Positions 1 to 5,869 of a DNA stretch of 64,000 nucleotides are shown here, piece after piece; the first letter of the stretch is position 1; every line of letters starts with the position of its first letter. Made by a program: the position numbers and the translations under genes. Under the pieces are notes generated by a model. The model had not been told where the DNA came from. It searched no databases and saw only the letters and a list, made by a program, of their open reading frames with translations. The DNA comes from an uncultured Pseudomonadales bacterium. GTDB taxonomy: Bacteria > Pseudomonadota > Gammaproteobacteria > Pseudomonadales > Azotimanducaceae. The stretch covers positions 2,480,001 through 2,544,000 of the forward strand of contig OY282447.1 of assembly GCA_958296165.1 (NCBI GenBank), read 5' to 3'.

Positions 1-104
1 GTGGCCCCTTGTCGGCGCTGGGCTGGGGACTAAGGCGCTGCGCCAAAACAAACATTATGGTAGGTCGTTCTGATCGACAATGGGAGAGGTCATGGAAGAC
101 CCGA

Positions 105-2003
105 CAGGGTGATTTCACGCTGACGAGCGGTTGTGCCAGGCGGTCCTCGCTGAGGCGTCGCATGTCGAAGGAGACCGGCGGGGCATGTCCGATGAACGGG
201 ATTGCTGGTTTTCGCGGAACCGGCGCGCCCTGTCGACGCGTGGTTGGGCGAGGCGAACGACCCCGCGCGCGAGGCATTGCGGCGCGGGAACGGATTCCGG
301 GCGCGGGGACGCTTCAGTCGGGCTTGAGGATGGCGTCGAGGGCGTCGCCGCGTCGCATCATGAAGTGGAGGTTCGCATCGGGCACGTGGCGGAAGCCGCG
401 GTGGAAGACGACGGCGAGCGCGATGTTGTTGAGGGTGGCGTTGTTGGCGGGCGCGTGTCGCGCGCGGATGCGGCTGGCGTCCTCGCCGAAGGTGGCGTCG
501 CGGCGGCAGTGGTTGCCGTTCTCGACCTGCCAGTGGCCGCGGTTCCAGGCCAGCAGGCGGTCGGGGCCGGCGCGCTCGGCGTTCGCGGAGGCGATGCCGT
601 AGGCGGTCTCGGCGGAGGGCGTGCCGGGCAGCAGGTCGCGGGCGGCGATGCGGCGGGTCTCGATGCGGCCGTGCGCCTTGGCCGGGCCGTCGACGTGTCG
701 GCGCACGGCGGGCGCGTCCCAGTCGATGGCGCGGAGCTGCGCGAAGGCGTCGGGGCAGTTGGCCTTGACGTCGAGCGCGTAGTCGGCGCCGTGGACGTCG
801 ACGATGGCGCGCTCGGTGTCGGCGCAGGCGTGCAGGGCGTCGAGCGTGATCGCGCAGCCGCGCAGGTCGACGTCTTCGAGCAGCGCCCGCAGCGCGGCCG
901 TCTCGCCGCCCTTGTCGCGGCAGCACCGGCTCGCCAGCGGGCGGCCGCCGTGGGTGACCAGGGTGGCGGTCTCGAAGCAGGCGCCGTCGCCGGCGCGGTT
1001 GGCGCCGCGGATGCGCTTGCCGTCCGCGGCGAGGGCGGGCAGGTCGGACGACTCGGCGAGGCGCGGCGCGCCAGGCCCCCAGGGCGCGCAGTTCGCGCTG
1101 CTCGAGGCCGCGCGCGAACCGTTCCGTCGCCGCCGGCCCGCGCTGCCCCGCGAGCCGCGCCAGGGCGCAGATCGACAGCACCGTCGCGAGGCCGTGCTTG
1201 CGCCCCTGGCCGCGCCGGCTGTCCGGCGCCGCCGCGAACGGGTCGCGCAGCGAGCGCAGCTCCGTCGCCGCGTAGCGCACCGGCGTCGCCCGGCACGACC
1301 ACTCCGCGCGGTCGACCGGATCCGACAGCCGCGCCGCGGCGTCCGAACGCAGCGGACGCACGAACATCTCCTTCGGCACCGAGTGCGGGTCCGTGTACGC
1401 GCCGTTGTGCCGCGCGAACCCCTTCGTGCGGCCCACCCGCCGCCAGTTCGAGGCCGCGTAGCAGACGCCGCGGAACCGCGACGGATCCACGAACGTCTCC
1501 GCGAGCTCCAGCGGGCGCCCGTGCGCCGCGCGCCAGTCCGCGCTCAGCCGACGCAGGCTCGGCCCCAGCGTCCGCGACGCCAGGTTCCTCGTCCCTGCCG
1601 CCTCCGGCAGGATCACGAACCGCGTGTTGTTGCCGATCAGATGCAGACGCCGGAACTGCACCGAACGGTGCCAGCCCAGCCAGCGATCCCGCGGCGCGCA
1701 CTTGAACGCGCCCGACTGCCAACCCGCCAGCGCCAGCCAGTGCCCGCGCCACACCGCGACGTGCCGCAGCCCGCGACCCGCGAACTGCCGGAACCCCAGA
1801 TAGTGGTGCGCCGCCATCAGCGCGTCCCACCGACGCCGCTCGTCCCCGCGCGCCGGACGAACCTCCACCTCCCGCAACGACACTTCCGCCTTGTCGAACA
1901 CGCCCGCCATCGCCCCTCTCATAGGGCATCCATCGACAAATAGCCAGCACTTCCTCAACGCCTACGCCCGTCAATGCCTTCCCGCTAGCGTGAAATAGCC
2001 CTG
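105..2003 (-). mobile_element. ISAs1-type insertion sequence with 10-bp target duplication
   Basis: Both ends are visible. The left inverted repeat is 105-127 and the right one 1981-2003, matching at 18 of 23 positions and both beginning CAGGG followed by ATTTCACGCT. The flanks are a perfect direct repeat GAAGACCCGA at 95-104 and 2004-2013, as expected for a 10-bp target duplication. The single gene inside is a minus-strand transposase with an extra N-terminal domain. Removing the element and one repeat copy restores an ISAzo13 transposase start, so the insertion landed in another IS. Confidence 0.88.
314..1910 (-). pseudogene. DruA-like (DUF4338) / ISAs1-family transposase fusion, frameshifted
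   Basis: The first ~210 residues match the DUF4338 family (DruA of the Druantia defence system) as I know it: HHYLGF, RWLGWH, NNTRFVILP, LSADWRAAHG and AETFVDPSRFRG appear in order. The frame then enters ISAs1-type sequence (RFARGLEQRELRALG) and shifts near 1060-1083, close to a run of five G on the coding strand. The transposase continues in another frame with LAADGKRIRGAN, RNRGHWQVENGNH-like (WNRGHWQVENGNH) and HAPANNATLNNIAL, ending at 314. Only about 15 residues lie between the first block and the DGK motif, fewer than I expect for ISAs1 enzymes, so there is probably a deletion as well. Start taken at ATG 1910; ATG 1922 or an earlier start is possible. Programmed frameshifting is less likely than decay because of the apparent deletion. 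Confidence 0.75.
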
Positions 2004-2015
2004 GAAGACCCGATC

Positions 2016-3227
2016 GTGCGAACGATACTTGAGAAATACATGACGTTGATGCCGCTGCTGAACGAGCGGACGGCGCGGATTTGGGCGGCGACGGAGGCGC
2101 GGGCGCTGGGACGGGGCGGCGTGACGCGGGTGATGGAGGCGACGGGGATGTCGCGGCGGCGCGTCGCGGCGGGCGTGCGGGAGATCGAGTCGCGCGGCGG
2201 CGTCGCGGAGCCGACGGCGCGGCAGCGGGCGCCGGGAGGCGGTCGGAAGCGGCTGACGGAGCGGGATCCGGGTCTGGCGGCGGATCTGGAGAGGCTGGTG
2301 GATCCGGCGACGCGGGGCGACCCGGAGGGGCCGCTGCTGTGGACGAGCCTGAGCACGGCGAAGCTGGCGGCGGCGCTGGCGGAGCGGGGCCGCGAGGTCA
2401 GCGGTCGGACGGTGGCGCGGATGCTGCGCGCGATGGGCTACAGCCTGCAGGCGAACCGCAAGACGACGGAGGGGAGGCAGCATGCGGACCGGGACGCGCA
2501 GTTCAACCACGTCAACCGGCGGGCGCGGGCGTTCCAGCGCCGCGGCGACCCGGTGGCGTCGGTGGACGCGAAGAAGAAGGAGCTGGTCGGCGACTTCCGC
2601 AACGGCGGGCGCGAATGGCGACCGCAGGGCGACCCGGAGCGGGTGCGCGTCCACGACTTCAAGGACGGGGCCCTGGGCAAGGCCATTCCCCACGGCGTGT
2701 GCGACCTGTCGGCGGACGCCGGCCGGGTGAGCGTCGGGGTCGACCACGACACGGCGTCGTTCGCCGTGGAGACGCTGCGGCGCTGGTGGCGGAACATGGG
2801 AAGCGGGGCCTGCCCGGACGCCGGCCGGCTGCTGGCCACCGCCGACGCCGGCGGCTCGAACGGCGCCCGCAGCCGGCTGTGGAAGGCGGAACTGCAGCGC
2901 TTCGCCGACGAGACGGGGCTGAAGGCGTCGGTGTGCCACTTCCCGCCCGGCACGAGCAAGTGGAACAAGATCGAGCACCGGATGTTCTGCCGCATCACGC
3001 AGAACTGGCGCGCCCGACCGCTGGCGAGCCGCGAAGCGGTGGTGGAGCTCATCGCCAACACGACCACCGCCAAGGGGCTGACGGTGCGCGCCGAACTGGA
3101 CGACAACGAGTACCCCACGGGCCGCAAGGTGACCGACGAGCAGATGGCGGCCCTTTCGCTTTCCAGAGACAAGTTCCATGGCGACTGGAACTACATGATC
3201 TCGCCAATTCGCAAAACCGAAGAATAA
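2016..3227 (+). pseudogene. ISAzo13-family transposase, 5' end split by an insertion
   Basis: The protein (403 residues from GTG 2016) resembles the ISAzo13 / Rhodopirellula-type DDE transposases: an N-terminal helix-turn-helix region (about residues 1-130), then SVDAKKKELVG, VGVDHDTASFAVE, TADAGGSNGAR and NKIEHRMFCRIT in the catalytic half. The natural start appears to be ATG 92, preceded by GGGAGAGG at 82-89. Joining 92-104 to 2014 onward gives M-E-D-P-I-V-R-T in frame with this ORF. The ISAs1-type element splits codon 5. Nearly the whole protein could still be made from GTG 2016 or ATG 2040 if a promoter in the inner element supplied transcription, so loss of function is likely but not certain. 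Confidence 0.85.
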
Positions 3228-3309
3228 ATCGTTTATTTTGTCTGGAGTCCTAAGCGAGTCGAAGCCGCACGTGTGGCGACCTGCCCGCTGGAGCAAGGCG
3301 CTGCATCGG

Positions 3310-3564
3310 ATGCGGACGGGGAAATCCATATTCAGCGCCAAACGGCGGTTCGACGCCTACTGCCGGCTGCAAGAGAACGAAATCTGGAAGGCCGTGCTGC
3401 CGTTCTTCGATAGCCGGTATGTGCTGCTGCTTGGAATGCTCGACGTTGCCCTGACTCGCCTTCTGCTCGATGGCCGCATCAGAGGGAGTTTCGCGGCCCA
3501 ACACGCGCGGCATCTACTATTGGAGCCTGATCTGGTCGGGTTGATCGCTAGCAAGGCTAAGTGA
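3310..3564 (+). CDS. Small protein of unknown function beside IS end
   Basis: An 84-residue frame from ATG 3310; the same frame is open back to TTG 3238, which overlaps the presumed IS end. The composition looks protein-like: a charged N-terminus (SAKRRFDAYCRLQENEIWK) followed by an aliphatic stretch (VLLLGMLDVALTRLLLDG). There is no family I recognise. Because it abuts the ISAzo13 end it may be the 3' remainder of a gene cut by that element. No ribosome binding site is clear. Confidence 0.35.
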   Translation: MRTGKSIFSAKRRFDAYCRLQENEIWKAVLPFFDSRYVLLLGMLDVALTRLLLDGRIRGSFAAQHARHLLLEPDLVGLIASKAK

Positions 3565-3584
3565 CGCCACGCGGCGAGCAACGC

Positions 3585-4394
3585 TCAGCCCAACGCCAAT
3601 CCCCGCAGCAGCTCCACCCGCTCGCCAAACTCAGCCGCATCCCGATAGCGCCCGCCGTGGACGAACCGCTCTGCGCCGGCTTCATGGTACGCCTGCAACA
3701 ATTCGGCGGCGGCCGTTCGGTCGTGCAAAGGCAGCGCACCCATCACCGTGGCGGGGCCGGCGGCGCGGCCAGCGTCCGCGCAGAGCTGGCGATACGTTGC
3801 CAAATGCACCGCGAGCTTGTCCGGGCGCAGCGCCATAGGCAGCCAGCCGTCGCCGTAACGGGCCGCGCGGCGCAGGGCGTGCGGCGGCCCGCCGCCGATC
3901 AGCACGGGCGGCTTGGCGGGACGCGGCTTGAATAGGAACGGCTGCCCGTTCTGCACCACTTGGTCGTCTTCGAAGCAGCGATTGAGAAGATCGAGCGTGG
4001 CATCCGTCGCCTTGCCGCGCTTGGAACGATCCATGCCCAACGCCTTGAACTCTTCCGCCATCCAACCGACGCCAACGCCCAGAATCAGCCGTTCGCCAGA
4101 GAGTTCCTGCACCGAGGCGATCTGCTTCGCGGTCGGCAGCGCGGAGCGATAGGGCAGAATCAGCACGCCTACGCCCAGCCGAATGCGCTGCGTGGCGCCG
4201 GCCAGCCAAGCCAATGTGACGAGCGGGTCCACGTAGCGCCCGCCGGAGCCTTCTGCATCGTCTGGCGGAATGGCGATGTGGTCTACCACCCAGATGGATT
4301 CCAAGCCGGCCTCTTCCGCCAGCGCCGCGCACCGCAAGAGCGTCTCCGGCGTGGATTGCGCGCCCATGTTGCGCAGGGTTACGCCCAAATGCAT
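3585..4394 (-). CDS. LLM-class (luciferase-like) flavin/F420 oxidoreductase
   Basis: A 269-residue TIM-barrel protein of the bacterial luciferase-like superfamily. Characteristic pieces are the N-terminal MHLGVTLRNMG, ESIWVVDHIAIP, the RIRLGVGVLILPYR strand, GERLILGVGVGW and the PPVLIGGG phosphate-binding loop near residue 190. It resembles the F420-dependent TIGR036xx group more than alkanesulfonate monooxygenases, but cofactor and substrate cannot be read from the sequence. The start is ATG 4394 because AAGAGG lies 7 bases upstream; an upstream ATG at 4427 lacks such a site. It lies downstream of ffh on the same strand with a gap of about 90 bp. Confidence 0.8.
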   Translation of the reverse strand: MHLGVTLRNMGAQSTPETLLRCAALAEEAGLESIWVVDHIAIPPDDAEGSGGRYVDPLVTLAWLAGATQRIRLGVGVLILPYRSALPTAKQIASVQELSGERLILGVGVGWMAEEFKALGMDRSKRGKATDATLDLLNRCFEDDQVVQNGQPFLFKPRPAKPPVLIGGGPPHALRRAARYGDGWLPMALRPDKLAVHLATYRQLCADAGRAAGPATVMGALPLHDRTAAAELLQAYHEAGAERFVHGGRYRDAAEFGERVELLRGLALG

Positions 4395-4486
4395 GAGATG
4401 TCCTCTTAAAGCGTGAGATACCGCCATTATGCGGCTATGGGCTGGCGCTTTGGCCGCTGCGCACCGGCGCAGAAGTGCCGGAATCC

Positions 4487-5869
4487 TTAGCGGCGGCGGC
4501 GGCCTCTAGGCACCGCTTGGGGTGCCCGCTGCATGGCCTCGATGCCGCGCATCATGCGCTGCATGCCGCCCTTGCGAGTCACCTTCTTAACCGTTTTCTG
4601 CATGGTCTTGTGCTGCTTTAGCAGGCGGTTCACATCTGGAATGGTGGTGCCGCTGCCGGCCGCGATGCGGCGTTTGCGGGCGCCGTTGATGAGATCCGGA
4701 TAGCGGCGCTCCTGCGGCGTCATGGAGTTGATGATGGCGTCCATGCGGCGGTATTCGCGTTCGTCGAACTTGTCGCGCACCGGCTGCGCGATCTGCCCCA
4801 TGCCGGGCATCTTGTCGAGAAAGGCGTCCACGCCGCCCATGCCGAACATCTGCTGGATCTGATCTTGGAAGTCCGCCAAATCGAACCTCTGGCCGCGCTG
4901 CACCTTCTTGGCCAAGCGCACGGCCTTGCGCTTGTCTACCTTGCGCTCCGCCTCTTCGATGAGCGTTAGCACGTCGCCCATGCCGAGGATGCGCGAAGCG
5001 ATGCGATCCGGGTGGAACGCCTCGAGCGCATCGGTTTGTTCGCCAACGCCTAGAAACTTGATCGGCTTGCCGGTGACCGCGCGTACGGAGAGCGCCGCGC
5101 CGCCGCGCGCGTCGCCGTCTGCCTTGGTGAGCACCACGCCGGTGAGCGGCAAGGCGTCGTGGAATGCTTTGGCAGTGATGGCTGCGTCTTGGCCGGTCAT
5201 GGCGTCTACCACGAACAGCGTCTCGATGGGGTTCAACACGCCGTGCAAGGCTTTGATTTCCGCCATCATCTGTTCGTCGATGGCGAGCCGGCCGGCGGTG
5301 TCTACGATGAGCACGTCGTCGAATTGGGTGCGGGCGTCGGCGATGGCGCGTTGCGCGATGGCGGTTGGCGCTTCGTCCGCTGCGCTCGGCACGAAGCGAG
5401 CCTGCGCTTCGCGCGCCAAGGTCTCGAGCTGATCGATAGCGGCCGGGCGGTATACGTCCGTGCTCACCACCGCCACGCGCTTGCGTTCGCGTTCCTTAAG
5501 GAAGCGTGCCAGCTTGGCTACGGTGGCTGTTTTCCCGGCCCCTTGCAGGCCAGCCATCAGCACCACCGCGGGTGGATTGACCGCCAAGTTCAGGGCGTCG
5601 TTGGCCTCGCCCATCAGCCGGACGAGCTCCTCGTGGACGATCTTCACGAACGCCTGGCCGGAATCCAACGATGTGGCCACGCCTTGGCCGATGGCGCGTT
5701 CTTGAACGTCCCTCGTGAACTCGCGCACCACCGAGAGGGCAACGTCCGCTTCGAGCAGCGCTAGGCGCACCTGCCGTACGGAGTCGCGGATGTTGTCTGA
5801 CGTTAGCCGTCCGCGCCCGGAAACCGAGCGCAGAGCATTGGTTAGGCGATCGCTGAGATTCTCGAACAT
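4487..5869 (-). CDS. ffh: Signal recognition particle GTPase Ffh
   Basis: A 460-residue SRP54-type protein that binds 4.5S RNA and signal peptides and targets nascent membrane proteins to FtsY. The helical N domain (MFENLSDRLTNAL, ALLEADVAL) is followed by the GTPase domain with GLQGAGKT near residues 105-112, DTAGRL, TKADGDARGG and GVGEQTDAL. The methionine-rich M domain runs from about residue 300 (MFGMGGVDAFLDKMPGMG, RRYPDLINGARKRRIAAGSG) and ends in a basic tail. Length and all motifs are normal. Start at ATG 5869; the longer frame upstream lacks family similarity. It stands alone between the helicase and the LLM gene. Confidence 0.97.
   Translation of the reverse strand: MFENLSDRLTNALRSVSGRGRLTSDNIRDSVRQVRLALLEADVALSVVREFTRDVQERAIGQGVATSLDSGQAFVKIVHEELVRLMGEANDALNLAVNPPAVVLMAGLQGAGKTATVAKLARFLKERERKRVAVVSTDVYRPAAIDQLETLAREAQARFVPSAADEAPTAIAQRAIADARTQFDDVLIVDTAGRLAIDEQMMAEIKALHGVLNPIETLFVVDAMTGQDAAITAKAFHDALPLTGVVLTKADGDARGGAALSVRAVTGKPIKFLGVGEQTDALEAFHPDRIASRILGMGDVLTLIEEAERKVDKRKAVRLAKKVQRGQRFDLADFQDQIQQMFGMGGVDAFLDKMPGMGQIAQPVRDKFDEREYRRMDAIINSMTPQERRYPDLINGARKRRIAAGSGTTIPDVNRLLKQHKTMQKTVKKVTRKGGMQRMMRGIEAMQRAPQAVPRGRRRR

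Follow-up and report, generated by a model that had tools for sequence, protein, structure and literature searches.

A decayed ISAs1-family insertion sequence encodes a transposase with a predicted Mom-like GNAT domain that recurs with several transposase families

The window analyzed here, a 64,000-nucleotide stretch of DNA from an uncultured Pseudomonadales bacterium, carries at positions 105 to 2003 a complete ISAs1-family insertion sequence with 17-bp inverted repeats and a 10-bp target duplication (Table 1). The initial annotation had placed the feature at 314 to 1910, which is correct for the coding part but not for the whole element. The insertion point lies just downstream of the ATG of another gene (window 92 to 94, 2016 to 3227), and joining the flanks minus one duplication gives the open reading MEDPIVRTILEKYM...; by inspection, the interrupted gene appears to encode an ISAzo13-like transposase. 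The flanks consist of this ISAzo13-like frame and other genes. On the minus strand, from 1910 to approximately 314, the element matches in order DruA (PF14236, DUF4338; E = 7e-18, 65 to 66 bits against a Pfam gathering cut-off of 27 bits), DDE_Tnp_1_assoc (PF13808), and DDE_Tnp_1 (PF01609), as expected from the proposal that a DUF4338 domain lies N-terminal to an ISAs1 transposase. The NCBIfam ISAs1 model (NF033564, cut-off 70 bits) scored 109 bits on the window copy when neighboring pieces were combined. The DDE triad (D331, D392, and E522), invariant in a 14-protein alignment (A4), is kept at all three positions in the window.

Relative to a sibling copy in the same genome (L012), to which it is 93.5% identical, the window copy has three deletions: one of 104 bp near 1070, one of 72 bp near 627, and one of 3 bp near 995. 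Its DruA and ISAs1 halves are out of frame relative to each other, and we regard the copy as dead because the 104-bp deletion shifts the frame. We conclude that the element is a degenerate ISAs1-family insertion sequence with a single gene for a two-module transposase.

Table 1. Positions of the insertion sequence and its parts in the window
Feature	Position	Strand	Description
Target-site duplication, left	95..104		GAAGACCCGA, exact repeat of 2004-2013
Target-site duplication, right	2004..2013		GAAGACCCGA, exact repeat of 95-104
Terminal inverted repeat	105..121	+	CAGGGTGATTTCACGCT; 17 nt, 88% complementary to 1987-2003; sibling L012 has the same ends
Terminal inverted repeat, transposase-start side	1987..2003	-	AGCGTGAAATAGCCCTG; pairs with 105-121
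Broken transposase gene (predicted DruA/Mom-like GNAT + ISAs1)	314..1910	-	Frameshift from 104-bp deletion near 1070
Predicted GNAT (Mom/DruA-like) domain core	1350..1874	-	PF14236 E = 3e-18; AlphaFold pLDDT 87.8; Mom Z = 15.0
Invariant residues of GNAT core	H at 1803-1805, S at 1575-1577	-	Invariance from residue counts
DDE_Tnp_1-associated domain, start of ISAs1 transposase proper	1098..1238	-	PF13808 E = 2.9e-5, under curated cut-off
DDE transposase domain, matched part	416..955	-	PF01609 E = 5e-6
DDE triad	D 1022-1024 (just outside PF01609 match), D 839-841, E 521-523	-	D331/D392/E522 of alignment A4

Related elements are better preserved. The sibling copy has its own 10-bp duplication (GGGTACGATG); a single open frame spans its DruA domain and the greater part of ISAs1, with a frameshift of its own near the C terminus. 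In L085, L067, L079, and others, the two domains share a single open reading frame (ORF), with a length of approximately 590 amino acids when intact. With the NCBIfam ISAs1 model, the fused proteins scored about twice the cut-off (L012, 150 bits; L067, 155 bits; L216, 168 bits). The genome of the window contains eight PF14236 matches, two of them fragments, belonging to two element families of the same architecture with 10- to 11-bp duplications. A scan of the collection returned 60 further loci, about 35 of which encode both domains, complete or almost so, within a single ORF. Hosts of fused ORFs include Pseudomonadales, other Gammaproteobacteria, Alphaproteobacteria, Acidobacteriota, Verrucomicrobiota, and Candidatus Dadabacteria; several of the host metagenome-assembled genomes bear isolate names that, judged from the titles, suggest sponge or marine symbiont sets. 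The relatives are stand-alone insertion sequence copies at many sites. Copies within a genome share a mean identity of about 99%, and those with readable ends differ in their 10- to 11-bp duplications. Element L085, for example, measures 2,042 bp and has GGGCGAGGTG duplicated on both sides.

These elements share with the ISAs1 family scores above the curated cut-off of NF033564 in intact relatives, the DDE triad, inverted repeats of approximately 17 nt beginning CAGGG, and target duplications of 10 to 11 bp, which in this family are typically 8 to 10 bp. They differ from it in the addition of about 205 N-terminal residues, predicted to form a GNAT domain, and in an element length of approximately 2.05 kb. 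A tree built on the ISAs1 part places all the fused elements in one group (support 100/99); the lone "plain" row among them (L010) comes from a frameshifted fused copy, of which it is the C-terminal part. The fused ISAs1 elements are thus one clade that spans several bacterial phyla. The N-terminal domain is under purifying selection: dN/dS was 0.10 to 0.32 in eight of the nine pairs with an estimate and 0.63 in the other. Mean identity was 62% in this domain versus 48% in the ISAs1 part. Viral contigs gave three weak partial matches in one search and none in another. In phages, the fused protein was matched only at its ISAs1 part, and an ISKra4-associated DruA had no match; E. coli genomes gave no match. 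In the plasmid collection, a near-complete fused protein was found only in Candidatus Thiodictyon. A plasmid of Candidatus Thiodictyon also encodes a stand-alone "DUF4338 domain-containing protein" (L261:2677-3555), with an integrase and transposases of IS91 and IS4 in its vicinity.

The N-terminal domain, approximately 190 residues long, is predicted to adopt the GNAT fold and belongs to the DruA (PF14236) family, which matched all 23 members of an alignment of related domains (A3). Structure prediction, a check named in the initial annotation, was run with AlphaFold on the domain as encoded in the window; strands and helices in the model (pLDDT 87.8, pTM 0.82) follow the GNAT order. Foldseek matched this model to GNATs, with phage Mu Mom at rank 2 (E = 2e-7) and NAT10 among the matches. 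In a VIA-align comparison, Mom (PDB 8bv8) came first (Z = 15.0, rmsd 3.6, 168 residues, 18% identity; next match, Z = 13.6), and 890 of 999 aligned PDB chains reached Z >= 8, those listed being GNATs. In the full-length model of L085 (pLDDT 78.3), residues 12 to 198 likewise resemble GNAT/Mom (Z = 13.6), whereas residues 213 to 581 resemble the Tn5 transposase fold (Z = 18.6), which is covered by the ISAs1 module alone.

Sequence profiles point in the same direction. The Pfam Mom family (PF25680) matched 15 of the 23 related domains (best E = 9.5e-4; observed bit scores of 14.5 and 17.8 lie under the 27.1-bit cut-off), and no other GNAT family was matched. PHROG 1384, "Mom-like DNA modification protein," matched all seven insertion sequence (IS)-type proteins or domains (best 1.9e-5; window domain, 0.014); a Druantia-type DruA gave no match in the same search. 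Alignment by hhalign to a nine-protein Mom alignment gave a probability of 93.9 (P = 1.5e-7, 165 columns). As a specificity control, the same profile was compared with other GNATs, and all five Mom proteins outscored E. coli RimI, SpeG, and part of RimJ. On these comparisons, Mom, the DNA modification enzyme of phage Mu, is the most specific relative of the domain among families of known function, at a remote similarity of 18% identity. Phage Mu is a transposing phage, and Mom modifies its adenines. The IS-type domain shares with Mom and Mom-like proteins (PF25680, PHROG 1384, PDB 8bv8) the GNAT fold, as modeled, and specific sequence similarity; it differs in being fused to a transposase, whereas Mom is a free-standing phage gene. 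Mom has been described as a GNAT that acylates adenine at N6 (PMC7824862).

The likeness extends to aligned His, Arg, Ser, Gly, and Tyr residues. Across 36 dereplicated IS-type domains associated with five transposase families, H32, G41, R93, S108, G144, and W152 are invariant, and Y147 is present in 32 of 36. In profile alignments, H32, R93, G144, and Y147 align with Mom H48, R101, G146, and Y149, which are invariant in nine Mom proteins. S108 (in NLASR; 36 of 36 domains) aligns with the Mom serine (in NSESR) that is mutated in the PDB entry "inactive mutant S124A"; the role of S124 in Mom activity is taken here from that entry title. On inspection of the sequences, the canonical acetyl-CoA loop was recognizable neither in the domain nor in Mom.

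The same module accompanies several other transposase families, and this recurrence is what is most novel here. The IS-type domain is fused N-terminally to an IS4-family transposase (L018) and to Tn5-like transposases (L021, L140, L124, L107, and L078, the match in L078 being restricted to the Tn5-like N terminus). Elsewhere it is a separate, codirectional gene directly upstream of IS4/Tn5-like (L139), ISKra4 (L138), IS66 (L131; under the NCBIfam cut-off but over the Pfam cut-off), and IS1634 (L147) transposases. In every case examined, the module is N-terminal to or upstream of the transposase; for two IS-type domains (L217 and L218), no transposase was found nearby. The domain tree sets the ISAs1-fused lineage apart from the others as one clade (100/100 with three labels corrected); L078 and L107 (minus strand) are of the IS4_3 type and L051 is a truncated ISAs1 fusion. 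Placement of the domain ahead of the transposases of at least five IS families suggests that some transposons supply a DNA-modifying enzyme of their own.

Other features were observed at these loci. Proteins L018, L019, L217, and L218 (IS4 associated, IS66 associated, or orphan) have about 100 extra N-terminal residues that resemble a helix-turn-helix, an extension absent from the ISAs1-fused type. The two orphans share this helix-turn-helix-like N-terminal part, and the L218 protein has a P-loop ATPase-like ORF about 2 kb away. In L147, the DruA-like ORF (929-1903) and the IS1634 transposase (2724-5409) adjoin a type I-E cas1 gene.

PF14236 takes its name from the DruA component of Druantia. 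Family-level homology between the fused domain and Druantia DruA (PF14236, PADLOC PDLC00002) is detectable (hhalign of IS-type against Druantia DruA, P = 1.2e-9 over 60 columns) and includes an RDxWIGW region in common. The fused domain, however, lacks both terminal regions of the DruA model, and no Druantia genes were recognized near the IS-type loci examined. PADLOC DruA models gave no match to the ISAs1-fused proteins and 14 to 21 bits for other IS types. On sequence comparison, Druantia DruA is a distant cousin, its homology real but remote, and the ISAs1-fused domain belongs to a distinct subfamily that escapes the DruA models of PADLOC. Direct alignment of Druantia-type DruA with Mom gave no significant match (four sequences only), and we therefore claim the Mom link for the IS type alone. 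DUF4338 has also been called GNAT-like in DndF proteins (PMC10853773); these belong to the same Pfam family, but their N-terminal domains are fused to P-loop ATPases in counter-invader systems, whereas those described here are fused to transposases. Such a transposase fusion was described nowhere in the DUF4338 literature that we found.

Two further readings were considered for the domain. In one, a permissive Pfam model has mistaken an ordinary ISAs1 N terminus for DruA, or the fusion is a spurious product of GC-rich open frames; many long open frames do arise in GC-rich DNA, and the window copy carries a frameshift. We find this barely credible. The best ISAs1 matches in the same genome, plain transposases, are 383-amino-acid frames without the extra domain, from which we conclude that the domain is not the ordinary N terminus of the family, and ordinary ISAs1 alignments in tblastn start mostly near residue 215 of the fused protein. 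The initial view of the domain as more than such an N terminus accordingly holds, with the single clade of fused elements also in its favor; a chance fusion is excluded by dN/dS well under 1 together with the high-confidence GNAT prediction. In the other reading, the protein is a chimera or remnant of a Druantia defense system captured by an insertion sequence, to which the family name and the significant family match lend some color. This too we judge very unlikely, in view of the PADLOC result, the unmatched C-terminal part of the DruA family model, the occurrence of the module with five transposase families, and the lack of recognized Druantia genes beside the IS-type loci examined. The informative relative of the fused domain is Mom, not the Druantia system.

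As to function, we rate at about even the chances that the GNAT/Mom-like domain is an active enzyme that modifies DNA at or around the transposon during transposition. DNA as the substrate is suggested by the likeness to Mom, and adenine as the target by pure analogy with it. In this proposal, the C-terminal module would provide a complete ISAs1/Tn5-fold DDE transposase, and the N-terminal GNAT would be an acyl-CoA-dependent enzyme tethered to it that acylates DNA, on adenines if it acts as Mom does. The benefit might be that transposon or target DNA is shielded from host nucleases, or that a DNA mark regulates retransposition, much as Dam methylation tunes the transposition of IS10 and IS50. 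However, GNATs also modify proteins, small molecules, and RNA, and NAT10 was among the Foldseek matches; the unrecognizable acetyl-CoA loop, a trait of Mom as well, likewise speaks against the proposal. In a rival reading, the domain would be a GNAT fold without catalytic activity, retained for DNA binding, dimerization, or oligomerization and recognizing the transposon ends or target. This would fit the constant placement of the domain in the transposase polypeptide or in a codirectional gene just upstream, always N-terminal or upstream; enzyme folds are sometimes reused in this way. We nevertheless consider it unlikely, as the putative active-site residues H32, R93, S108, and G144 do not vary over five transposase families, in contrast to the diverging residues around them, the ISAs1 module by itself already covers the entire Tn5 transposase fold together with its DNA-binding part, and the plain ISAs1 elements of the same genome do without the extra domain. 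Somewhat more doubtful still is an active acyltransferase that acts on something other than DNA (its own transposase, a protein of the nucleoid or host, or tRNA) and regulates transposition or host interaction: the structural matches also include generic GNATs, protein acetyltransferases, and NAT10, but the top rank in the VIA comparison goes to Mom, the sole GNAT family matched in Pfam and PHROGs, and RimI, SpeG, and RimJ are unmatched by the profile.

A broader form of the DNA modification proposal is that a Mom-type base-modifying enzyme is carried in cis by a family of transposases and is associated with at least five DDE transposase families (ISAs1, IS4/Tn5-like, IS66, ISKra4, and IS1634), so that bacterial transposition would in general include, as an accessory step not described before, the modification of transposon or target DNA. 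We advance it tentatively and with less confidence than the narrower proposal. If the DNA modification proposal is true, the result would be a transposase with a DNA-modifying activity of its own, a testable role for much of the large "DruA/DUF4338" family, and, for the related defense protein, the hypothesis of a GNAT acting on DNA. Druantia has been classed among systems that discriminate by DNA modification (2026 review, PMC12904381). The initial annotation had suggested that DruA-type proteins share ancestry with, or were recruited from, transposon proteins. The kinship stands as family homology; recruitment of DruA from transposons is not supported as stated, since the fused subfamily is PADLOC negative, no suitable root is available, and its affinity is to GNATs, specifically Mom. 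The expected lead on what DruA binds gives way to one on a possible enzymatic activity on DNA.

In a phylum-wide sample, 17 genomes had a Pfam DruA match; by our classification, 12 carried the IS type and six the defense type, with one carrying both. The label "Druantia DruA" for PF14236 proteins therefore overstates the number of defense systems. Four full-length PF14236 proteins from related genomes (L134, L135, L136, and L137) had strong PADLOC DruA scores; HerA-like genes lie near the PF14236 genes of L135 and L137, and a TnsB-like gene is present in L137. At two further loci (L144:2304-6194 and L145:3-3233), PF14236 domains lie in frames of 1,077 to 1,297 amino acids that also match P-loop ATPase and DndF/SspF models.
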